Of a stretch of 32,296 nt of DNA, positions 2,095 through 20,546 are shown in pieces (the first letter of the stretch is position 1; each line of letters starts with the position of its first letter). Below the pieces are notes generated by a model. It worked only from the letters and a program-made list of their open reading frames with translations, did not search any database and was not told the origin of the DNA. Source of the DNA: Allosalinactinospora lopnorensis (lineage in GTDB: Bacteria; Actinomycetota; Actinomycetes; Streptosporangiales; Streptosporangiaceae); NCBI RefSeq assembly GCF_000981225.1, contig NZ_LAJC01000073.1:1-32296 (forward strand), written 5' to 3'. Position numbers and translations under genes: made by a program.

Positions 2095-3577
2095 GATGCG
2101 CGAAGTGGATTCTTCTCGAAGTGCCGGCGAGCTGGCCGCGCTGCTCGGCGACTGGCCCTCCGGCGACGGTCCGCTGTACCGGAAGCTCACCCAGGCGCTG
2201 CGCCGCGCCGTCGACGGCGGGATGCTGGCCGTGGGGGAGCGGCTGCCGTCCGAACGGGCGCTGGCCGCGGCACTCGCCATCAGCCGCACGACCGTGATCG
2301 CCGCCTACGGCGAGCTGCGCACCGAGGGACTGCTCGACAGCCGGCAGGGCAGCGGGACGCGGGTGAGCCCGGGGCTGGCGCCGGCACGTCCTGACGGGTG
2401 GGTGCCGGGCGGCCGGGGCGCCCCGATGTACCAGCGCCTGCTCGACGGCTCCGGTGACCTCATCTCGCTCTCCTCCGTGCGCAGCGAGGGACTGCCGGAG
2501 GTGGCCGAGGCCGTCCGCGAGGTGGCCGCCGAGGACCTGCCCGCCCTGATGGCCGAGGCCGGCTACCACCCGCGCGGCCTGCCGGCGCTGCGTGCGGCCG
2601 TCGCCGAGCACTACACCGGCAAAGGGCTGGCCACCCACCCCGGCCAGATCGTCGTGACCACCGGCGCGCACCAGGCGATCGCGCTGGTGGCGGCCCTGTA
2701 CCTGCGCAAGGGGGCCCCGGTGGTCGTCGAGTCCCCCGGTTTCACCGGGTGCCTGGACCTGCTGCGCGCCGAAGGGGTGGAGTTCCTGAGCGTCCCGATG
2801 GACGAGCACGGCATCGACGCCGTGCGGGCGCGCGAGGTGCTGCGCGAGGGCTCCCCCCACCTGATGTACCTCATGCCCAGCTACCACAACCCGACCGGGG
2901 TCCTGATGTCGTCCGCGCGGCGCCGGGAGATCGGGGAGCTCGCCGCGCGCAACGGGGTGCCGGTCCTGGAGGACGGCGCCTACACCGGGCTGCGCGCCCC
3001 CGAGGAGCCGCCGCCGGTCGCCGCCTTCGCCCCGCGCGAGGCGGAGGTGGTCACGGTGGGTTCCCTGTGCAAGGTCGGCTGGGCGGGACTGCGCGTCGGG
3101 TGGCTGCGGGCCCCGGCCGAGATCGCCGAGCGGCTCAGCCGGCGCAAGCTCCTGGCCGATCTGGGCACCCCACTGCTGGACCAGGCGGTCGCCGTACGGC
3201 TGCTCCCGCAGTTGGACAGGCTGGCCCGGGCGCGGTCCGAACTGCTCGCCGGACGGCTGGCGTTCCTGGAGGAGCGGCTGCGCACGGCACTGCCGTCCTG
3301 GGAGTGGCGCGGCCCCGATGGCGGCTCGGCGCTGTGGGTGCGGATGCCCGGCATCGAATCCCATGTGTTCGCCCAGGTAGCGCTGCGCCACGGGGTGGAG
3401 CTCATCCCGGGGTCCGTGATGACCCCCGATGGCGGCGGGTTCAGCGACCACTTCCGGCTGCCGTTCGGGCACGACGAGGAGACCCTGGAGGAACTGGTGG
3501 CCCGGCTGGCGCGCGCCTGGAAGGATCTCTCCCGCCACGGCCCCTGCGAGGAGACGCCGGCGCGCCTCGTGGTGTGA
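2093..3577 (+). CDS. MocR-type transcriptional regulator (GntR HTH plus aminotransferase fold)
   Basis: A regulator of 494 residues with a GntR winged helix (about residues 20-85: PLYRKLTQALRRAVDGGML, LPSERALAAALAISRTTV, GLLDSRQGSGTRV) joined to a class I aminotransferase-like domain (about 110-480). The PLP-binding lysine is seen at about residue 327 in GSLCKVGWAGLRVGW, and HNPTG and YTGL motifs are present, so the domain should still bind PLP. MocR proteins usually sense PLP or an amino-compound adduct and act on a neighbouring divergent gene, here the DUF3291 gene. ATG is taken at 2093; a second ATG follows directly at 2096. A short ribosome site (AGG at 2086-2088) precedes. No pdxS/pdxT is nearby, so PdxR function is not supported. 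A GC-rich hairpin follows the stop. Confidence 0.88.
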   Translation: MMREVDSSRSAGELAALLGDWPSGDGPLYRKLTQALRRAVDGGMLAVGERLPSERALAAALAISRTTVIAAYGELRTEGLLDSRQGSGTRVSPGLAPARPDGWVPGGRGAPMYQRLLDGSGDLISLSSVRSEGLPEVAEAVREVAAEDLPALMAEAGYHPRGLPALRAAVAEHYTGKGLATHPGQIVVTTGAHQAIALVAALYLRKGAPVVVESPGFTGCLDLLRAEGVEFLSVPMDEHGIDAVRAREVLREGSPHLMYLMPSYHNPTGVLMSSARRREIGELAARNGVPVLEDGAYTGLRAPEEPPPVAAFAPREAEVVTVGSLCKVGWAGLRVGWLRAPAEIAERLSRRKLLADLGTPLLDQAVAVRLLPQLDRLARARSELLAGRLAFLEERLRTALPSWEWRGPDGGSALWVRMPGIESHVFAQVALRHGVELIPGSVMTPDGGGFSDHFRLPFGHDEETLEELVARLARAWKDLSRHGPCEETPARLVV

Positions 3578-3639
3578 GGGAGCGCCGGGCACGGCCCGCG
3601 CCCGTCCCCGCACTTCGCGAAGCGGAGGAAGAAGACGAT

Positions 3640-3660
3640 CCCCGCTTCCGCGAGGCGGGG
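3640..3660 (+). terminator. Probable terminator after MocR gene
   Basis: CCCCGC (3640-3645) pairs with GCGGGG (3655-3660) around a 9-base loop and is followed by a moderately T-rich GTTGTTGTTAG. A second palindrome, CTTCGCGAAG (3613-3622), lies just before it and could pair alternatively with the left part of this hairpin. Confidence 0.5.
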
Positions 3661-3753
3661 GCCGTTGTTGTTAGATGGACGACACATTCGTACCGGGCGA
3701 GGAGACGGCCCACAGGCGGCGGTCTCCCGCCGCGCACCGAGGGAGGCGCGAGA

Positions 3754-5733
3754 ATGCCGCAGCGGACACAGCCACCCGTGCTCTGGGAGCCCGGCGAGCA
3801 GCGGCGCGAACACGCGAACATCACGGCCTTCACGCGATGGGTGCGTGAGAACCGCGATGTGCGGGCGGACGACTACGACTCACTGTGGCGCTGGTCGGTG
3901 ACCGACCTCGACGGGTTCTGGTCGGCGGTCTGGGAGTACTTCGGTGTCCGCGCCGAGACCCCCTACGAGCGGGTGCTCGCCAAGCGGACCATGCCCGGTG
4001 CCGAGTGGTTCCCCGGGGCGCGGCTCAACTTCGCGCGGCACGTCCTCGAAGGGCGCGACGACGACACCGTGGCCATCCGGCACGCGTCGGAGCTGCGCGT
4101 CATGGGCGAGTGGACCTGGGGCGAGCTCAAGCGCCGGACGGCGGCCATCGCCGCCGGGCTGCGCCAGCTCGGGGTGGGCCCCGGCGACCGCGTCGTCGCC
4201 TACCTGCCCAACATCGCCGAGTCCGTCGCCGCGTTCTACGCCTGCGCGTCCATCGGGGCGGTGTGGTCCTCGTGCTCACCGGACTTCGGGGTGCGTAGCG
4301 TCGTCGACCGCTTCTCCCAGATCGAGCCGAAGGTGCTGCTCGCCGTGGACGGCTACCGCTACGGCGGCAGGGACTTCGACCGCCTCGACGTGATAGCGGC
4401 CCTGCGCGAGCAGCTCCCCACGCTCGAACACACCGTCGTGCTCTCCTACCTCCGCGACCGGGCGGTGGACGGCGCGCTCTCCTGGGAAGAGTTCGAAGAG
4501 GCCAGCGACGGCGCCCCGCTGCGCTTCGAGTCGCTGCCCTTCGACCACCCCCTCTGGGTGCTCTACTCCTCCGGCACGACGGGACTGCCCAAGGCGATCG
4601 TGCACGGGCACGGCGGCATGCTGCTGGAGCAGCTGAAGAACCTGAACCTGCACCTGGACGCCCGCAGCGGCGACCGGGTGTTCTGGTACACCACCACCGG
4701 CTGGATGATGTGGAACTTCCTGGTCAGCGTACTGCTGACCGAGGCATCCATCGTCCTGTACGACGGCAGCCCCGGATACCCCGATCTCGGGGCGCTGTGG
4801 GACCTGGCCGAGCGGGCCGGGATCACCATCTTCGGGACCAGCGCGAGCTACATCGCCGGCTGCATGAAGGAGGACGTCCACCCCACCGATGGGCGCGACC
4901 TCTCCGCCCTGCACGCCATCGGCTCCACCGGGTCGCCTCTGAGCCCCGAAGGGTTCGACTGGTGCTACCGCGAACTCGGCGACGGCCTCTGGCTTTTCTC
5001 CACCAGCGGCGGCACCGACGTCTGCAGCTGCCTCGTCGGCGGCGCCCCCACCCTGCCGGTCTACGAGGGCGAGATCCAGGCGCGCTCGCTCGGCATGGCC
5101 GTCGCCTCCTGGGATCCCGACGGCAAGGAGCTCATCGGGGAGGTCGGCGAACTGGTGGTGACCGAACCGGCCCCCTCCATGCCCGTCTACTTCTGGGGCG
5201 ACCCCGACGGCGAGCGGCTGCGCGACAGCTATTTCTCGATGTACCCGGGCGTCTGGCGGCACGGCGACTGGATCGAGATCACCGATCGTGGCACCGCCGT
5301 CATCTACGGCCGCTCCGACTCCACCATCAACCGCGGCGGTATCCGCATCGGCACCAGCGAGATCTACCGGTCCGTGCTCGCGCTGGACGAGGTCGTCGAC
5401 GCGCTTGTCGTGGACGTGCCACAGCCCGGGGGCGGTTCCCGCATCGAGTTGTTCGTCGTGGTGCGCGAAGGGGAGACGCTCAGCGACGACCTGGTCAAGC
5501 GGCTGGCCCGGGGGATCCGCGAGGACTGCTCGCCGCGGCACGTCCCCGATGCGGTGCACGCCGTCGCCGAGGTGCCGCGCACCCTCTCGGGCAAGGTGCT
5601 GGAGGTGCCGGTCAAGCGGATCCTCGCCGGAGAGCCGCCCGAGCGTGTCGCCAGCCGCGACTCGCTGGCCAACCCGGCCGCCCTGGACTACTTCAGCCGG
5701 CTGGCTGAACAGGAGGGACGCCGCTCCTCCTGA
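3754..5733 (+). CDS. Acetoacetyl-CoA synthetase
   Basis: An acyl-adenylate-forming enzyme of 659 residues, predicted to activate acetoacetate to acetoacetyl-CoA with ATP in the cytosol. Seen: the ACS N-terminal region with WSVTDLDGFWSAVWEYFGV (about 47-65), the AMP-binding P-loop YSSGTTGLPKAIVHG (271-285), STSGGTDVCSCLVGG, the hinge region IYGRSDSTINRGGIRIG, and the C-terminal acetylation-site region PRTLSGKVLEVPVK. Length and the acetoacetyl-type motif TDVCSCLVGG fit AacS rather than acetyl-CoA synthetase. ATG 3754 has a GGGAGG site 7 bases upstream. It probably has its own promoter, since terminators flank it on both sides. A role in ketone-body or leucine-derived acetoacetate use is inferred. 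Confidence 0.9.
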   Translation: MPQRTQPPVLWEPGEQRREHANITAFTRWVRENRDVRADDYDSLWRWSVTDLDGFWSAVWEYFGVRAETPYERVLAKRTMPGAEWFPGARLNFARHVLEGRDDDTVAIRHASELRVMGEWTWGELKRRTAAIAAGLRQLGVGPGDRVVAYLPNIAESVAAFYACASIGAVWSSCSPDFGVRSVVDRFSQIEPKVLLAVDGYRYGGRDFDRLDVIAALREQLPTLEHTVVLSYLRDRAVDGALSWEEFEEASDGAPLRFESLPFDHPLWVLYSSGTTGLPKAIVHGHGGMLLEQLKNLNLHLDARSGDRVFWYTTTGWMMWNFLVSVLLTEASIVLYDGSPGYPDLGALWDLAERAGITIFGTSASYIAGCMKEDVHPTDGRDLSALHAIGSTGSPLSPEGFDWCYRELGDGLWLFSTSGGTDVCSCLVGGAPTLPVYEGEIQARSLGMAVASWDPDGKELIGEVGELVVTEPAPSMPVYFWGDPDGERLRDSYFSMYPGVWRHGDWIEITDRGTAVIYGRSDSTINRGGIRIGTSEIYRSVLALDEVVDALVVDVPQPGGGSRIELFVVVREGETLSDDLVKRLARGIREDCSPRHVPDAVHAVAEVPRTLSGKVLEVPVKRILAGEPPERVASRDSLANPAALDYFSRLAEQEGRRSS

Positions 5734-9156: not shown

Positions 9157-9162
9157 TAAGGT
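9157..9162 (+). promoter_or_regulatory. -10-like element upstream of deoC
   Basis: TAAGGT (TANNNT type) lies about 43 bases before the deoC ATG, leaving room for the GGAGG ribosome site at 9192-9196. No matching -35 is clear. Confidence 0.3.
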
Positions 9163-9205
9163 GGCCATTCGGCGATGCAGACCGACCCGACGGAGGATGG
9201 GCCCG

Positions 9206-10150
9206 ATGCCCGATACCGCAACGCCGCCCGGCCCGGCGGCGTCCAACGCGTCGCTCCGGGCGTACCTGCACGGGCTTCCGGGGGTGGACGAGGTCGGCGT
9301 GCGCGAGCGCGCGGCGGACCTCGCGACACGCTCGGTCAAGACCGCGGCGAAGGGCCGGGCGATCGACCTCGCGATCCGGATGGTCGACCTGACCACGCTC
9401 GAAGGCGCCGACAGCCCCGGCAAGGTGCGTGCGATGTCGGCCAAGGCGGCGCACCCCGACCCGGCCGATCCGACGGCGCCGCCGGTCGCGGCGGTCTGCG
9501 TCTACTCCGACATGGTCGCGGTGGCCGTGGAGGCCCTGAAGGGCACCGGGGTGCGCGTGGCCTCGGTCGCCACCGCGTTCCCCTCCGGGCGCGCCCCCAT
9601 GGAGGCGAAGCTCGCCGATACCCGCCGCGCGGTCGCCGACGGCGCCACCGAGATCGACATGGTCATCGACCGAGGCGCCTTCCTCGCCGGCGACTACCGG
9701 AAGGTGTTCGAGGAGATCACCGCTGTCAAGGAGGCCTGCGCGACGGCGCATTTGAAGGTGATCCTGGAGACCGGCGAGCTGGCCACCTGCGACAACGTGC
9801 GCCGCGCCTCCTGGCTGGCGATCCACGCGGGTGCCGATTTCATCAAGACCTCGACGGGCAAGGTGGCCCCGGCGGCCACCCCGCAGGCCACGCTGATCAT
9901 GCTGGAAGCGGTCCGCGACCACTACGCGGCGACGGGGCGCCGTGTCGGCGTCAAACCCGCCGGGGGCATCCGCACCACCAAGGACGCCATCAGGAAACTC
10001 GTCCTGGTCAACGAGGTCGCCGGGCCGGCGTGGCTGGACCCGGACCTCTTCCGACTGGGCGCCTCCAGCCTGCTCAACGACCTGCTGATGCAGCGCACCA
10101 AGCTGGCCACCGGCAGCTACCCGGGCCCCGACTACTACACGCTGGACTGA
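9206..10150 (+). CDS. deoC: Deoxyribose-phosphate aldolase
   Basis: Cleaves 2-deoxyribose-5-phosphate to glyceraldehyde-3-phosphate and acetaldehyde, the last step of deoxynucleoside breakdown; cytosolic TIM barrel, 314 residues. Seen: VAAVCVYSDMV, the strand around HLKVILETGEL, the Schiff-base lysine at about 214 in DFIKTSTGK, and the second conserved lysine at about 250 in GVKPAGGIRT. This is the longer actinobacterial/eukaryote-like class rather than the 220-260-residue short class. ATG 9206 is preferred because GGAGG lies about 10 bases upstream; ATG 9197 overlaps that site. The aldehyde dehydrogenase that could remove acetaldehyde starts 5 bp after the stop. Confidence 0.92.
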   Translation: MPDTATPPGPAASNASLRAYLHGLPGVDEVGVRERAADLATRSVKTAAKGRAIDLAIRMVDLTTLEGADSPGKVRAMSAKAAHPDPADPTAPPVAAVCVYSDMVAVAVEALKGTGVRVASVATAFPSGRAPMEAKLADTRRAVADGATEIDMVIDRGAFLAGDYRKVFEEITAVKEACATAHLKVILETGELATCDNVRRASWLAIHAGADFIKTSTGKVAPAATPQATLIMLEAVRDHYAATGRRVGVKPAGGIRTTKDAIRKLVLVNEVAGPAWLDPDLFRLGASSLLNDLLMQRTKLATGSYPGPDYYTLD

Positions 10151-10155
10151 AGAGA

Positions 10156-11595
10156 GTGCCTGAACAGATCTTCGAGTACGCGCCGGCGCCGGAGTCGCGC
10201 GCCGTCGTCTCCCTGCGCTCGTGCTACGAGCCCTATATCGACGGGGAGTTCGCGCCGGCGAAGAGCGGCGAGTACCTGACCACGGTCAACCCGGCCGACG
10301 AGGAGCCGCTCGCCGAGGTCGCGGTCTCCGGTGAGGCCGATGTCGACCGCGCGGTGGCGGCCGCGCGGCGCGCTTTCGACACGGTCTGGTCGGCGATGCC
10401 CGGTGCCGAGCGCGGCAAGTACCTCTTCCGGATCGCCCGGATCCTGCAGGAGCGCTCCCGGGAACTGGCCGTGCTGGAGACGCTGGACAACGGCAAACCC
10501 GTCAAGGAGACCCGCGACAGCGACCTGCCGCTGGCCGCTGCGCATTTCTTCTACCACGCGGGCTGGGCCGACAAGCTCCCGTACGCCGGGCTCGGCCCCG
10601 AGCCGCGCCCGCTGGGGGTGGCCGCTCAGGTCATCCCGTGGAACTTCCCGCTGCTGATGCTGGCCTGGAAGATCGCTCCGGCGCTGGCGACCGGCAACAC
10701 GGTGGTTCTGAAACCGGCCGAGACCACTCCTTTGTCCGCGATGCTCTTCGCGGAGATCTGCCAGGAGGCGGAACTGCCGCGCGGGGTCGTCAACATCGTC
10801 CCCGGGGCCGGGGAGACCGGGCGCGCCCTGGTGGGCCACCCGGGCGCCGACAAGGTGGCCTTCACCGGCTCCACCGAGGTCGGCCGGGAGATCGCCCGCG
10901 CCGTGGCCGGTACCGGCAAGCGCCTCACCCTGGAACTCGGCGGGAAGGGCGCCAACATCGTCTACGATGACGCCGCCCTGGACCAGGCGGTGGAGGGCAT
11001 CGTCACGGGCATCTTCTTCAACCAGGGGCACGTGTGCTGCGCCGGTTCGCGGCTGCTGGTGCAGGAGTCCATCGCCGAGGAGCTGCTGCCCCGGCTGAAG
11101 GCGCGGATAGAGCGGCTGCGGCTGGGCGACCCGCTGGACAAGAACACCGACATCGGCGCGATCAACTCCGCCGCCCAGCTCGGCCGGATCCGCGATCTGG
11201 CGGGCACCGGTACCGAGGAGGGGGCCACGGCCTGGTCCCCGGCGTGCGAGCTGCCCGAGCGCGGCTACTGGTTCCCGCCGACGGTGTTCACCGGGGTGAG
11301 CCAGGCGCACCGCATCGCGCGCGAGGAGATCTTCGGTCCGGTCCTGTCGGTGCTGACCTTCCGCACCCCCGACGAGGCCGTGACCAAGGCCAACAACACC
11401 CCCTACGGCCTGTCGGCGGGGGTGTGGACCGAGAAGGGCTCCCGGATGCTGTGGACCGCCGAGCGGCTGCGGGCCGGTGTGGTGTGGTCCAACACGTTCA
11501 ACAAGCTCGACCCGGCCAGCCCTTTCGGCGGGTACAAGGAGTCCGGCTACGGCCGGGAAGGCGGACGGCACGGACTGGAGGCCTATCTTGGCTGA
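10156..11595 (+). CDS. NAD(P)-dependent aldehyde dehydrogenase
   Basis: A complete ALDH-superfamily enzyme of 479 residues, expected to oxidise an aldehyde to the acid. Beside deoC, acetaldehyde from deoxyribose-5-phosphate is the likely substrate (inference). All catalytic residues are visible: Asn163 in PWNFP, Lys186 in LKPAE, Glu260 in LELGGKGAN and nucleophile Cys294 in GHVCCAGS, with EEIFGPVLSV and PFGGYKESGYGREGG near the end. Start GTG 10156 follows an AAGAGA-like site and lies 5 bp after deoC. The stop overlaps the TTG start of the next gene by 8 bases, so the two proteins are probably made together, possibly as subunits of one enzyme. Confidence 0.9.
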   Translation: MPEQIFEYAPAPESRAVVSLRSCYEPYIDGEFAPAKSGEYLTTVNPADEEPLAEVAVSGEADVDRAVAAARRAFDTVWSAMPGAERGKYLFRIARILQERSRELAVLETLDNGKPVKETRDSDLPLAAAHFFYHAGWADKLPYAGLGPEPRPLGVAAQVIPWNFPLLMLAWKIAPALATGNTVVLKPAETTPLSAMLFAEICQEAELPRGVVNIVPGAGETGRALVGHPGADKVAFTGSTEVGREIARAVAGTGKRLTLELGGKGANIVYDDAALDQAVEGIVTGIFFNQGHVCCAGSRLLVQESIAEELLPRLKARIERLRLGDPLDKNTDIGAINSAAQLGRIRDLAGTGTEEGATAWSPACELPERGYWFPPTVFTGVSQAHRIAREEIFGPVLSVLTFRTPDEAVTKANNTPYGLSAGVWTEKGSRMLWTAERLRAGVVWSNTFNKLDPASPFGGYKESGYGREGGRHGLEAYLG

Positions 11596-12511
11596 GTCGG
11601 GCAAGCGGGCGAAGGGCGCGCGCGGCTCCGCCGCGGAGCGTTCCGAGGACGCGGCCGGGCGGCTGGCGGTGCGCAAGACCTACAAGCTCTATCTCGGCGG
11701 GGCGTTCCCGCGTTCGGAATCCGGCAGGTCCTATCCCGTGACCTCAGCGAAGGGCGATCATCTCGCCAATGCGGCGGCCGCTTCCCGCAAGGACGCACGC
11801 GACGCGGTGGTGGCCGCTCGCGCGGCGTTCGGTGGGTGGTCCTCCCGGACCGGCTACAACCGGGGCCAGATCCTCTACCGGGTCGCGGAGATGATGGAGG
11901 GGCGCCGCGCGCAGTTCACCGCGGAGATCGCGGCGGCCGACGGCATTAGCCGGACCCGGGCCGAGTCGATGGTGTCGGCCGCCATCGACCGCTGGGTCTA
12001 CTACGCCGGCTGGACCGACAAGTTCATCCAGGTCATCGGGGCTACCAACCCGGTCTCCGGGCCCTATTTCAATTCGAGCTCGCCCGAGCCCACGGGGGTC
12101 GTGGCGGTCATCGCCCCGCCCGAGGCCCCACTGCTGGGCCTGGTGTCGGTGCTCGCCCCGGTGATCGCGACCGGGAACACCGCGGTCGTCGTGGCGAGTG
12201 AGCGTGCCCCGCTCCCCGCGGTCACCCTCGCCGAGGTCCTGGCCACCTCCGACCTTCCCGGCGGTGTGGTCAACATCCTCACCGGGCGGCTGCACGAGCT
12301 CGCCCCCCACCTGGCCGCGCACGCCGATGTCAACGCCCTCGACCTCACCGGGGCGGGCGAGCTCGCGGCCGGGCTGGAGGAGGACGCGGCGCAGACCCTG
12401 AAACGGGTGCTGCGTCCCAGCGGGGACATCGACTGGGCGGCCGACCCGGGCATCTCCTGGATGACCCCGTTCCTGGAAGTGAAGACGGTCTGGCACCCGA
12501 TCGGCGTGTAG
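11588..12511 (+). CDS. Truncated, catalytically dead aldehyde dehydrogenase-like protein
   Basis: An ALDH-fold protein of 307 residues, against about 480 in the full family. The NAD-binding half is recognisable (KTYKLYLGGAFPRSESGRSY, then GVVAVIAPPEAPLLG, IATGNTAVVVASERAP, LPGGVVNILTG), but the catalytic Asn motif PWNFP has become PPEAP, the KPAE lysine is missing, and the whole Cys-bearing catalytic domain is absent. After about residue 270 the sequence jumps to a short tail (ISWMTPFLEVKTVWHPIGV). Start TTG 11588 overlaps the preceding gene by 8 bases and gives a natural N-terminus; no ATG lies near. There is no stop or frameshift, so it looks like a maintained pseudoenzyme. A structural or regulatory role is inference. 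Confidence 0.82.
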   Translation: MAESGKRAKGARGSAAERSEDAAGRLAVRKTYKLYLGGAFPRSESGRSYPVTSAKGDHLANAAAASRKDARDAVVAARAAFGGWSSRTGYNRGQILYRVAEMMEGRRAQFTAEIAAADGISRTRAESMVSAAIDRWVYYAGWTDKFIQVIGATNPVSGPYFNSSSPEPTGVVAVIAPPEAPLLGLVSVLAPVIATGNTAVVVASERAPLPAVTLAEVLATSDLPGGVVNILTGRLHELAPHLAAHADVNALDLTGAGELAAGLEEDAAQTLKRVLRPSGDIDWAADPGISWMTPFLEVKTVWHPIGV

Positions 12512-13221: not shown

Positions 13222-13322
13222 CTGAGCGCGGTTCGGCGGTGCCCCGATGGACACGGGGACACGGCCACTTCGCGGGCCGGTCGGCTCCCGCCGGATGCCG
13301 AGGATCACGAGGAGAGGCGCCA

Positions 13323-14120
13323 GTGACCACCGAAGCCCTGCAGACCGCCCAGCGGGCGGCCGACGAACTGCGTTCCCACACCGGAGTGGACTCCTACAAG
13401 GCCGCTTTCGTCATGGGGTCGGGATGGGCGCCGGGCGCCGACGCGCTCGGGGAAGAGGGCACGGAGGTCCCGATGAGCGCGCTTCCCGGGTTCCGGCCGC
13501 CCGCCGTCACCGGGCACCCGGGCAGGATCCGCTCCGTACGCAGCGGGGACCGCGACATGCTCGTCCTCCTCGGCCGCACCCACCTCTACGAGGGCCACGG
13601 CCCTGCGGCCGTCGTCCACGGGGTGCGCACCGCCATTGCCGCCGGGGCGTCCACGGTCGTCCTCACCAACGCGGCCGGATCGCTGGACCGCGAGCTCACG
13701 GTCGGCAGCCCGGTACTCATCGCCGACCACATCAACCTCACTGGGGCCTCCCCTCTGGACGGCGCCAATTTCGTCGATTTGAGCGAGACCTACAGCGCCT
13801 CGCTGCGCGCGGTCGCCCGCGAGGCGAACGCGGAACTCCGCGAGGGCGTCTACGCCGCCATGCGGGGCCCGCAGTTCGAGACCCCGGCCGAGATCCGGAT
13901 GCTCCGGGCCATGGGCGCCGATCTCGTGGGCATGTCCACGGCACTGGAAGCCGTCGCCGCGCGGGAGCAGGGCGCGTCAGTGCTGGGAATATCACTGGTC
14001 ACCAATGTCGCCGCGGGGTTGTCCGACCACCCGCTCGACCACCACGAGGTCCTGGAGACCGGTCGCGACGCCGCCGCCGACGCCGGAGGGCTGCTCGCGG
14101 CCATCGCGGCGAAAGTATGA
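13323..14120 (+). CDS. Purine-nucleoside phosphorylase
   Basis: Trimeric-type (PNP class I) phosphorylase of 265 residues that splits guanosine, inosine and their deoxy forms with phosphate into base and (deoxy)ribose-1-phosphate. Seen: the phosphate loop AAFVMGSGW (about 27-35), the HPGRI region, GRTHLYEGHG with the catalytic His (about 83-92), LTNAAGSL, YAAMRGPQFETPAEI (about 178-192), and VGMSTALEAVAAREQG followed by VTNVAAG. Start GTG 13323 has a GAGGAGAGG site 6 bases upstream. The sugar phosphate made here is the natural substrate for the mutase encoded 49 bp downstream. Confidence 0.92.
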   Translation: MTTEALQTAQRAADELRSHTGVDSYKAAFVMGSGWAPGADALGEEGTEVPMSALPGFRPPAVTGHPGRIRSVRSGDRDMLVLLGRTHLYEGHGPAAVVHGVRTAIAAGASTVVLTNAAGSLDRELTVGSPVLIADHINLTGASPLDGANFVDLSETYSASLRAVAREANAELREGVYAAMRGPQFETPAEIRMLRAMGADLVGMSTALEAVAAREQGASVLGISLVTNVAAGLSDHPLDHHEVLETGRDAAADAGGLLAAIAAKV

Positions 14121-14169
14121 CCTCGCGCAGGGCCAGACAGAGACCGGCACCGTTGCGAAGGGGAGCTCT

Positions 14170-15831
14170 ATGGGTGAGAGTTATCGCGAACAGGCGTGGG
14201 CGTGGCTGGAACAGGACCCTGATCCAAAGACCAGAGAGGAGCTGAGCGGCCTCTTGGAGGCCGGCGCCGACGCCGCCCTGGCCGACCGGTTCGGCGCCCG
14301 GTTGGAGTTCGGCACGGCCGGACTGCGCGGCGCCTTGGGGGCCGGGCCGAACCGGATGAACCGGGTGACCGTCATGCGGGCCGCCGCCGGGGTGGCGCGC
14401 TGGCTGGGGCCCGGAGGAACCGTGGTCATCGGCTTCGACGCCCGGCACCGTTCCGCGGACTTCGCCCGCGATACCGCCGCGGTGCTCTCGGGCGCCGGGT
14501 GCACAGCCCTGATGCTGCCGCGCCCGCTGCCGACCCCGGTGCTCGCGCACGCCGTCCGCGCGCGGGGCGCCGACGCCGGCATCATGGTGACGGCCAGCCA
14601 CAACCCGCCCGAGGACAACGGGTACAAGGTCGTGGTCGGCGGGTCGGGGCCGGATGCCGGCAGCCAGATCGTGCCGCCGGTGGACTCCGAGATCTCCGCG
14701 GCGATCGACGCCATCGGGCCGGTGACCGGGCTGGAGCTCGGCGAGGACTGGACCGTGCTCGGCGAGGACGTGGTCGAGGACTACCTCGACGCCATCACCC
14801 GGCTCCCGCTGGGAGTCGACCGCGACATCCACATCACCTACACGCCCATGCACGGCGTCGGCGCGCAGACGCTGCGTACGGCGTTCTCCTGGGCTGGCTT
14901 CCCCGCTCCCCGGCTGGTGCTCGAACAGGCCGCCCCCGATCCCAGCTTCCCGACGGTGTCCTTTCCCAACCCCGAGGAGCCGGGCGCGATGGACCTCGCG
15001 CTGGCGACCAGCCGCCGGCACGGCAGCGAGCTGATCCTGGCCAACGACCCCGACGCCGACCGGCTCGCGGTGGCCCTGCCCGGGCACGGGCTGCTGACCG
15101 GCGACGAGGTCGGAGGGCTGCTCGCGGAGTACGTCCTGCGCAACACCTCCGGTGCGGACCGCGTGGTGGCGACGACGATCGTGTCCGCGAGTCTGCTGCC
15201 CAAGATCGCCGCCGACTACGGGGTCGGCTGCGCCGAGACGTTGACGGGGTTCAAATGGCTGGCGCGCGCGGGCGGCCCCGGTCGGCGCAACGTCTTCTGC
15301 TACGAGGAGGCGCTCGGCTACTGCCTTGGCGGTGACGCCGGGCGGCCGGTCGCCGACAAGGACGGCATCAGCGCGGCGCTGGTCGTGACCGCCATGGCTG
15401 CGGAGGCCAAGCGCGAGGGGCGCACCCTGCTCGACCTTCTCGACGACCAGGCGCGGCGCTACGGGCTGCACCTCACCACGCAGCGCGCACTCCGCGTCGA
15501 CGACGTGGCCCTGCTGAGACGGGCGATGCGCCGGCTGCGCGCCGAGCCGCCCGACCACCTGGGGGAGTGGTCCATCGAGCAGACCGAGGACTTCCTGGAG
15601 GGCGGAGACGGCCTTCCGGGGACCGACGCGGTGCGCTACCGCCTCGCCGGCCCGACCGAGGGCCGGGTCACGCTGCGGCCATCGGGGACGGAGCCGAAGC
15701 TCAAGGCCTACATCGAGGTCGTGCTGCCGGTGCATCCCGACACCGCCGACCTGGCGCCCCTGCGCGCCCGCGCCGGCGAGCACCTCGCGGCGCTGAAGGA
15801 GGCCGTGGCCGGGCTCTTCCCGAAGGCATAA
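14170..15831 (+). CDS. PGM2/PMM-like phosphosugar mutase, probable phosphopentomutase
   Basis: An alpha-D-phosphohexomutase-superfamily enzyme of 553 residues. Seen: EFGTAGLRG (about 46-54) of the PGM2 branch, the phosphoserine Ser143 in TASHNPPEDNGYKV, the metal site DPDADR (293-298), the sugar-specificity region EEALGYCLGG, and the phosphate-binding RPSGTEPKLKAY near the C-terminus. Such genes are often labelled phosphomannomutase. Here, 49 bp behind purine nucleoside phosphorylase and with deoC and deoA nearby and no deoB seen, conversion of (deoxy)ribose-1-phosphate to the 5-phosphate, as human PGM2 does, is the better inference. ATG 14170 has an AAGGGGAG site about 5 to 6 bases upstream. 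It converges with the Lrp gene. Confidence 0.88.
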   Translation: MGESYREQAWAWLEQDPDPKTREELSGLLEAGADAALADRFGARLEFGTAGLRGALGAGPNRMNRVTVMRAAAGVARWLGPGGTVVIGFDARHRSADFARDTAAVLSGAGCTALMLPRPLPTPVLAHAVRARGADAGIMVTASHNPPEDNGYKVVVGGSGPDAGSQIVPPVDSEISAAIDAIGPVTGLELGEDWTVLGEDVVEDYLDAITRLPLGVDRDIHITYTPMHGVGAQTLRTAFSWAGFPAPRLVLEQAAPDPSFPTVSFPNPEEPGAMDLALATSRRHGSELILANDPDADRLAVALPGHGLLTGDEVGGLLAEYVLRNTSGADRVVATTIVSASLLPKIAADYGVGCAETLTGFKWLARAGGPGRRNVFCYEEALGYCLGGDAGRPVADKDGISAALVVTAMAAEAKREGRTLLDLLDDQARRYGLHLTTQRALRVDDVALLRRAMRRLRAEPPDHLGEWSIEQTEDFLEGGDGLPGTDAVRYRLAGPTEGRVTLRPSGTEPKLKAYIEVVLPVHPDTADLAPLRARAGEHLAALKEAVAGLFPKA

Positions 15832-19164: not shown

Positions 19165-20040
19165 ATGCGGCCAGGCGCACCGGCGGGGATCCGCGGAGGT
19201 GGACACGGATTTCCGGTACGGGGCACGGCACCGGAACCGGTGACGTCCGGTAGCGGGCCGTGCCCGGAGATGGAGAAGAGCTTGCACGCCACCCTCAACA
19301 GCGCTGTCACGCTGCGCTACGTGGACGACGACCCCGGCGCCGCCCCCGGCCGTCCCCCCGTACTGCTGCTGCACGGCTTCGGTTCCACCTTCGAGCTGAA
19401 CTGGGTCCGGACCGGCTGGACCGCCGCGCTGGCGGCCGAAGGGCTCCGCACGATCGGGCCCGACCTGCGCGGCCATGGCAGCAGCGGGAAACCCCGCCAG
19501 GACGACGCCTACCTGCCCGGGGTGTTCGTCGCCGACCTGGTGCTGCTCCTGGACGAGCTCGGCGTCGAGCGTGCCGATGTCGTCGGCTACTCCATGGGCT
19601 CCCGGCTGGCCTGGGAGTTCGCCCTGACCCGCCCGGAGCGGGTGCGGCGCGCGGCCCTCGGCGGTTTCGGGCCGCGCAACGCCTTCGCCGGCACCGATCT
19701 GGACGACCTGGAGTCCGACGACAGCCCCTTCGGTCGCCTGTACCGCGCGGTCGCGGAGCTGCCGGGAAACGACCTCGCGGCGCTGGCGGCGTGCGCGCGG
19801 GGCCAGGCCGCCCGCCCGTTCACCGAGGAACCCGCGCCGCGTTCCACGCCGCTGCTCTTCGTCGCGGGGGAGGAGGACGAGATCGCCGACGGCGTGGAGC
19901 GGCTCGCCCGGGTCTCCGGCGCCGCGGGGGCGCTGCGCATCGCGCGCCGCGACCACCGCACCGCCGTAACGGCCGGTGCGTTCAAGAAGGCCGTGCTGGA
20001 GTTCCTCGCCGACGAGGCCCCGATCTCCTCGACGGCCTGA
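19165..20040 (+). CDS. Alpha/beta hydrolase, possible AcoC-like partner of the lipoyl protein
   Basis: An alpha/beta-hydrolase-fold protein of 291 residues with an intact triad: nucleophile Ser143 in GYSMGS, acid about Asp238 in GEEDEI and His264 in RRDHRTAV; the oxyanion region HGFGSTFELNW is at 70-80. Start ATG 19165 has an excellent GGAGGG site, although the first 35 residues are extra to the fold and an ATG at 19270 is an alternative. It lies 13 bp behind the lipoyl gene, so it is part of the E1 operon. By analogy with AcoC (lipoyl plus hydrolase fused) it may act on the lipoyl-bound acyl group or its CoA ester; plain esterase activity is the alternative. No signal peptide. Confidence 0.82.
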   Translation: MRPGAPAGIRGGGHGFPVRGTAPEPVTSGSGPCPEMEKSLHATLNSAVTLRYVDDDPGAAPGRPPVLLLHGFGSTFELNWVRTGWTAALAAEGLRTIGPDLRGHGSSGKPRQDDAYLPGVFVADLVLLLDELGVERADVVGYSMGSRLAWEFALTRPERVRRAALGGFGPRNAFAGTDLDDLESDDSPFGRLYRAVAELPGNDLAALAACARGQAARPFTEEPAPRSTPLLFVAGEEDEIADGVERLARVSGAAGALRIARRDHRTAVTAGAFKKAVLEFLADEAPISSTA

Positions 20041-20083
20041 GGCGGACGCCCGCAGGGCGCGGACCGTCCGGGCCGTGGCCTAA

Positions 20084-20089
20084 TACAGT
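20084..20089 (+). promoter_or_regulatory. -10-like element upstream of cdd-deoA
   Basis: TACAGT within CTAATACAGTG lies about 50 bases before the cdd GTG, in a 101-bp gap after the hydrolase gene. It suggests that cdd-deoA has its own promoter. No clear -35. Confidence 0.35.
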
Positions 20090-20141
20090 GCCACCAGGAC
20101 GAGGGGCGGCGCCGGAAACCCCAACGGCAGAAGGGCCGGGC

Positions 20142-20546
20142 GTGACGCGAGAACCGGGCGAGGTGGACTGGCCGCGGCTGCGCGCCGCGGCCGGTGCCGC
20201 CGCGCGCAACGCCTACGCTCCCTACTCCCGGTTCCCGGTCGGGGCGGCGGCACTCGCCGACGACGGTCGTACGGTGACCGGCTGCAACGTCGAGAACGCG
20301 TCCTATGGGCTCACCCTGTGCGCCGAGTGCGGCCTCGTCTCGGCGCTGCACGCGACGGGCGGCGGCAGGCTGGTCGCGTTCACCTGCGTCGACGGTGCCG
20401 GGGCGCTGCTGACCCCCTGCGGCCGGTGCCGCCAGCTGCTCCACGAGCACGGCGGCGCCGACCTGCTGGTGGACACCCCGCGGGGAGCGGTCCGGCTGGC
20501 CGACCTGCTGCCCCAGGCATTCGGCCCGCACGACCTCGCACGCTGA
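20142..20546 (+). CDS. cdd: Cytidine deaminase
   Basis: Zinc enzyme of 134 residues that deaminates cytidine and deoxycytidine to uridine and deoxyuridine, feeding pyrimidine nucleosides to the phosphorylase encoded next. Seen: AYAPYSRFPVGAAAL (about 24-38), GCNVENASYGLTLCAE with zinc ligand Cys60 and proton-shuttling Glu62, and PCGRCRQLL with Cys93 and Cys96. Length is that of the tetrameric class. Start GTG 20142 is preceded by an AGAAGGG site. The deoA ATG follows 14 bases after the stop, so the two are one operon. Confidence 0.92.
   Translation: MTREPGEVDWPRLRAAAGAAARNAYAPYSRFPVGAAALADDGRTVTGCNVENASYGLTLCAECGLVSALHATGGGRLVAFTCVDGAGALLTPCGRCRQLLHEHGGADLLVDTPRGAVRLADLLPQAFGPHDLAR

Follow-up and report, generated by a model that had tools for sequence, protein, structure and literature searches.

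A two-gene form of the aldehyde dehydrogenase ALDH16 next to deoC in Actinomycetota

Ordinary aldehyde dehydrogenases (ALDHs) pair through a β-hairpin of the N-terminal domain and a C-terminal strand. In the dimeric and tetrameric enzymes of the ALDH1/2 type, catalysis and this oligomerisation flap are found on each chain. ALDH16 enzymes carry an extra C-terminal domain, the role of which is to our knowledge unsettled, both in bacteria and in human ALDH16A1, and we know of no agreed substrate for the family. Structures of the enzyme from Loktanella sp. (6MVR, 6MVS, 6MVT, and 6MVU) are those of Liu and Tanner (2019), as cited in excerpts of two reviews (PMC8160307, PMC10650815). This ALDH16 is a single polypeptide of about 767-795 residues made up of a catalytic N-terminal part, which carries the active-site Cys but has no dimerisation hairpin, and of a C-terminal domain that has both the hairpin and the C-terminal strand. 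According to an excerpt of PMC8160307, its tertiary contacts mimic quaternary ones and two subunits mimic a tetramer. Human ALDH16A1 is also a single chain with an extra domain and is presented, in the excerpted parts of both reviews, as a pseudoenzyme; its catalytic Cys is missing.

The locus described here lies in a stretch of 32,296 nucleotides from Allosalinactinospora lopnorensis (hereafter, the window). Two genes, called A and B, follow deoC on the forward strand. Their features are as follows.

9161..10150, + strand: deoC, deoxyribose-phosphate aldolase (TIGR00126, 182.4 bits, cut-off 117.3; longest frame, start provisional)
10156..11595, + strand: chain A, assigned as the catalytic part of ALDH16, 479 aa, GTG start
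10567..10614, + strand: hairpin of A in shortened form, with 16 residues separating W137 from G154
10642..10644, + strand: Asn163 of A
10711..10713, + strand: Lys186 of A
10933..10935, + strand: Glu260 of A
11035..11037, + strand: Cys294 of A, nucleophile, aligned with the Cys mutated to Ala in the C295A structure 6MVU
11577..11581, + strand: GGAGG, Shine-Dalgarno-like, for B, 6 nt 5' of the TTG
11588..12511, + strand: chain B (307 aa, TTG start), assigned as the C-terminal domain of ALDH16 on its own
12014..12094, + strand: region of B containing the oligomerisation hairpin at full length (27 residues)
12473..12499, + strand: C-terminal strand of B, residues 296-304, EVKTVWHPI

At the level of sequence comparison, the homology of A and B to ALDH16 is firm. 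Among PDB sequences, the top match of A is the Loktanella enzyme (6MVR, residues 11-474, 546 bits; 415 for the next other protein). It is also the top match of B, with 208 bits in total vs. 112 for the best ordinary ALDH, and the best stretch of B (155 bits) covers residues 492-766, which form the extra C-terminal domain. Because both match 6MVR, and in the same order, A and B are considered as two parts of one known protein. Pfam sees Aldedh as the sole family in either chain, the match of B being limited to profile positions 11-233 of 461. No curated family reached its own cut-off among the matches listed for A (25 of 44), and the model of the ExaC acetaldehyde dehydrogenase, NF050026, gave 424.2 bits, below its equivalog cut-off of 900. 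Whereas ALDH16 is a single polypeptide, A and B are two genes, and this is so in all 162 actinobacterial loci having both parts. The pair is therefore filed as a split variant of ALDH16 rather than as a plain member.

The sequence-only reading of the locus had credited A with Asn163, Lys186, Glu260, and Cys294, and this is borne out by the relatives: wherever the aligned residue is present in a set of 161, it is conserved (N163 and K186 in 154/154, E260 and C294 in 156/156). A thus differs from human ALDH16A1 in keeping all active-site residues, which it shares with ordinary ALDHs. That B is a 307-residue chain devoid of the Asn, the Lys, and the Cys domain, and yet free of stops, also holds. 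E179, V202, and P277 occupy the positions of N163, K186, and E260, C294 has no counterpart, and the reading frame contains no internal stop. Over 164 relatives of B, the first position is Asn in five, the second is never Lys and the third never Glu.

B had further been regarded as a truncated paralogue of A, and here the interpretation has to be changed. B shares 35% identity with A and is much closer, as judged from the PDB match, to the fused C-terminal domain; it corresponds to a stand-alone ALDH16 C-terminal domain, which is fused to the catalytic part in 10 proteobacterial loci. If B were a truncated copy of A that is decaying or can be dispensed with, the loss of the catalytic domain and of the aligned Asn and Lys would be accounted for, and one locus (L042) does show decay. 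However, this idea is contradicted by the nearness of B to the fused domain, by the co-occurrence of A and B, by the intact state of B in the relatives examined (no full-length second gene was seen among the 164), and by the strength of selection. Median dN/dS values over 148 pairs, which are not independent and in which B is at least 86% identical, are 0.150 (A) and 0.170 (B), with a maximum of 0.254 for B, far from the value near 1 expected of neutral decay. B is under purifying selection. Many of its positions are conserved in at least 97% of the 164 relatives and many are identical in all 10 fused rows; such positions include R67-K68-D69, W84, R92, Q94, D144-K145, T220, D222, H245, and W302. 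We consider decay to be extremely improbable.

In the model of B (pLDDT 83.1, pTM 0.81), residues 160-168, 171-175, and 296-304 form strands. Foldseek ranks ALDH16 first (TM 0.80). With VIA-align, B is superimposed on ordinary ALDHs with Z 34.2 and an rmsd of 1.9 Å over 269 residues, which reach from chain residue 7 to 480 and comprise the N-terminal domain and the C-terminal strand without the catalytic domain; on ALDH16 the corresponding values are Z 32.7 and 270 residues, several ordinary ALDHs fitting equally well or slightly better. The predicted fold of B therefore resembles that of an ordinary ALDH reduced to its N-terminal domain and C-terminal strand.

Examination of the flap shows that its pieces are unequally distributed between the two chains. 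The hairpin of A has 14-17 residues in 149 of 154 sequences and 22-25 in the remaining five; that of B has 27 in 165 of 165. The C-terminal strand motif is found in 156 of 164 B tails and in none of 161 A tails, A ending before the strand; the eight B tails without the motif are seven variants and one cut sequence (L224). The fused proteins show the same arrangement within one chain: in 10 of 10, the hairpin is 14 residues long in the catalytic part and 24 in the C-terminal domain, and the protein ends with [DQ]VK[NT]IW (the strict motif in two of the 10 C-domains, QVK[NT]IW in the other eight). As controls, eight ordinary ALDHs were used, five from the genome of the window and three from relatives. 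A believable hairpin length was obtained in four (25, 25, 30, and 30), a mismatch in one (44), and none in three; all eight extend past the position where A ends. Hence, A lacks both classical flap pieces and B has both. In ordinary ALDHs, catalysis and flap are on each chain; here, they are on separate chains. As the dead chain carries the coupling piece that is absent from the working one, B is probably a needed partner rather than a broken gene.

The overlap of eight bases and the TTG start of B, read earlier from the sequence, were found at 11588-11595; an in-frame GTG at 11669 is a possible alternative start. Of 162 loci, 74 have a start codon at the -8 position seen in the window, and in 71 of these a Shine-Dalgarno-like motif is present under a loose definition; this recurrence is weak support since the bases concerned also encode A. 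The survey behind these counts comprises 165 actinobacterial loci (the best 80 of 574, 83 genomes besides that of the window, L158, which is an actinobacterial chromosome listed as a plasmid and is counted among the split forms, and the window itself). Both parts are present in 162; the other three (L080, L199, and L202) have B at the end of a contig. The 162 loci are all split, mostly with overlapping genes, and the pair proposed from one sequence is conserved among them. This conservation supports the earlier proposal that a working chain and a catalytically dead one form a two-chain aldehyde dehydrogenase behind deoC.

These loci also bear on the possibility that the two frames form a single gene for a fused ALDH16, owing to a sequencing error or a programmed frameshift. 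In the window, B is one frame off A with an overlap of eight bases, as such a view would have it. However, all three frame relations occur across the 162 split loci, and in some of them A and B are set apart by gaps or by other genes. In addition, start codons recur right at the stop of A, the start of B nearest to that stop being at -8 in 53 loci, -4 in 43, and -1 in 14. A single gene is thus very improbable, even if programmed frameshifting may occur in addition to the split in overlapping loci. In L097, a TGA separates A from B in translation, hence the locus is split; L088 has the ordinary 8-base overlap. A read-through A-stop-B model of L097, built to look at how A and B are arranged and for which few sequences were available in the N-terminal half of A, is poor (pTM 0.45), with A badly packed; its best PDB match is ALDH16, with a whole-chain rmsd of 27-28 Å, and A alone gives 12-16 Å against ordinary ALDHs. 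Long open frames of 770-1154 aa in Actinomycetota were considered as possible fused genes, and the regions fetched were all split.

Some loci depart from the common arrangement. B is intact in L166, L171, L175, and L193 although other sequence of 0.6-2.1 kb lies between it and A. Just before B, the loci L166, L171, and L175 share a similar short frame (about 80-100 residues) that contains repeats of the type IGRLAIGQ.AMRRV. A has at least 440 residues in 152 of 162 loci; the ten shorter cases comprise six that run into a contig end, the truncated L042, and three (L081, L207, and L208) in which A is broken or incomplete. In L081 (Fodinicola feengrottensis) and L207, A was matched in two pieces with a break, possibly a frameshift or a sequencing error. 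In L042 (Nonomuraea deserti), the last 134 residues of A are present and B has an extra tail of 30 residues, as if this copy were a duplicate in decay. In L178, L179, and L195, the end of A is extended by long tails rich in Lys and Ala (22, 51, and 34 residues past Y478), and the C-terminus of B is about 8 residues longer than in the window in Streptomyces-like loci (L159, L160, L162-L165, L167-L169, and L174).

Among near relatives, B was detected (E below 1e-100) in 27 of 41 genomes, at 28 loci since one genome (G003) has two, and in 21 of the 24 other family members in that set. In a draw of 396 genomes over the phylum, B is present in 84 (E ≤ 1e-40), A in 82 (E ≤ 1e-150), and both in 81; the four genomes with one part only are contig-end cuts (G249, G305, and G325, with a cut A beside B, and G173, where A is cut on its 3' side). 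About four fifths of these genomes have neither part. The fused form was studied in 10 plasmid-collection records, two of them from S. meliloti, hand-picked mostly for their annotation out of 159 records matching at E ≤ 1e-18. On S. meliloti pSymB, both parts are in one frame directly after deoC, and fusion with adjacent deoC is found in 10/10 of these proteobacterial loci (pSymB, eight more annotated ones, and the unannotated L118). A further partial match, L157, is an ordinary ALDH without deoC. A tree of A was built by a quick search from 55 of 151 split chains (thinned at 84% identity), the chain of the window, 9 fused rows, and 7 outgroup rows. The split and fused forms are set apart from the seven ordinary ALDHs (support 100), and one branch parts split from fused forms (SH-aLRT 99), a topology compatible with either fission or fusion.

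The pair had been placed behind deoC, and deoC indeed ends 5 nt before A. Of the 162 split loci, 145 have the gene at most 300 nt upstream and eight have it 373-1871 nt away; it was not found in the fetched DNA of the other nine. Further genes were assigned from Pfam downstream of the pair in the window.

13239-14120, downstream: nucleoside phosphorylase superfamily gene
14005-15831, downstream: phosphoglucomutase/phosphomannomutase gene
19260-20546, downstream: cytidine deaminase gene

This nucleoside-salvage setting fits the breakdown of deoxyribose phosphate to acetaldehyde. The window also has a frame with an acetyl-CoA-synthetase-type AMP-binding domain at 2749-5733. In S. coelicolor, SCO4913 and SCO4912 would correspond to A and B. 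SCO4914 is given as deoC and SCO4917 as purine nucleoside phosphorylase in an excerpt of PMC6302529; an excerpt of PMC3293853 names SCO4913 once, as a homologue in a list for arginine catabolism, with unchanged expression.

The adjacency of deoC, in both split and fused loci, raises the question of whether B works apart from A, for instance by pairing with or regulating DeoC or some other protein, and is merely co-expressed. A contact of B with DeoC, suggested earlier from the sequence, may exist, gene adjacency being the one argument for it. The persistence of B up to 2.1 kb away from A would suit such a role, and human ALDH16A1 is reported in an excerpt of PMC10650815 to bind other proteins. 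However, the link with deoC is equally true of A, the two parts are covalently joined in the Proteobacteria loci examined, and the flap of B is exactly what A is missing. A function of B apart from A is thus unlikely.

Our preferred reading, to which we give a probability of about 0.83, is that the pair is an ALDH16 built from two subunits, B being an obligate structural, perhaps regulatory, subunit, and that AB oxidises the acetaldehyde released by DeoC. A would be an NAD-type aldehyde dehydrogenase with a full active site, deprived of the hairpin and of the strand used for dimerising, and B an ALDH N-terminal Rossmann domain without the catalytic domain that has retained both dimerisation pieces. 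Most likely, the flap of B docks on the catalytic domain of A in the way the covalently attached domain of the Loktanella enzyme does. AB would then form one pseudo-dimer, and (AB)2, i.e. A2B2, would mimic the classical tetramer. The simplest reading would be that B supplies in trans the flap missing from A to give an (AB)2 enzyme. The same two parts in the same order, with the active-site Cys in the catalytic one, would thus be used as in Loktanella, on two chains instead of one. DeoC would convert deoxyribose-5-phosphate into glyceraldehyde-3-phosphate and acetaldehyde, and AB, judging from gene context, would oxidise acetaldehyde to acetate. More speculatively, the pair may represent an obligate two-subunit aldehyde dehydrogenase of Actinomycetota in which the flap-less A relies on a dead Rossmann partner able to switch the enzyme, for example in response to NADH, acetaldehyde, or DeoC. 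Unlike in fused ALDH16, B could do so because it can come off; we hold this extended view as possible but doubtful.

The titles and abstract starts searched contain no description of a split ALDH16, which the primary ALDH16 paper may mention. As far as the searched literature shows, the two-gene form is a newly noticed form of a known family. It offers an explanation for short "aldehyde dehydrogenase family" genes that resemble pseudogenes. Moreover, the association of ALDH16 with deoC in two phyla suggests deoxyribose-derived acetaldehyde as a substrate. Since the C-terminal domain is encoded by a separate gene, it can be deleted, re-added, and titrated. These soil bacteria would have an unusual aldehyde-oxidising enzyme, which is one long protein elsewhere and is made here of a working half and a dead half.
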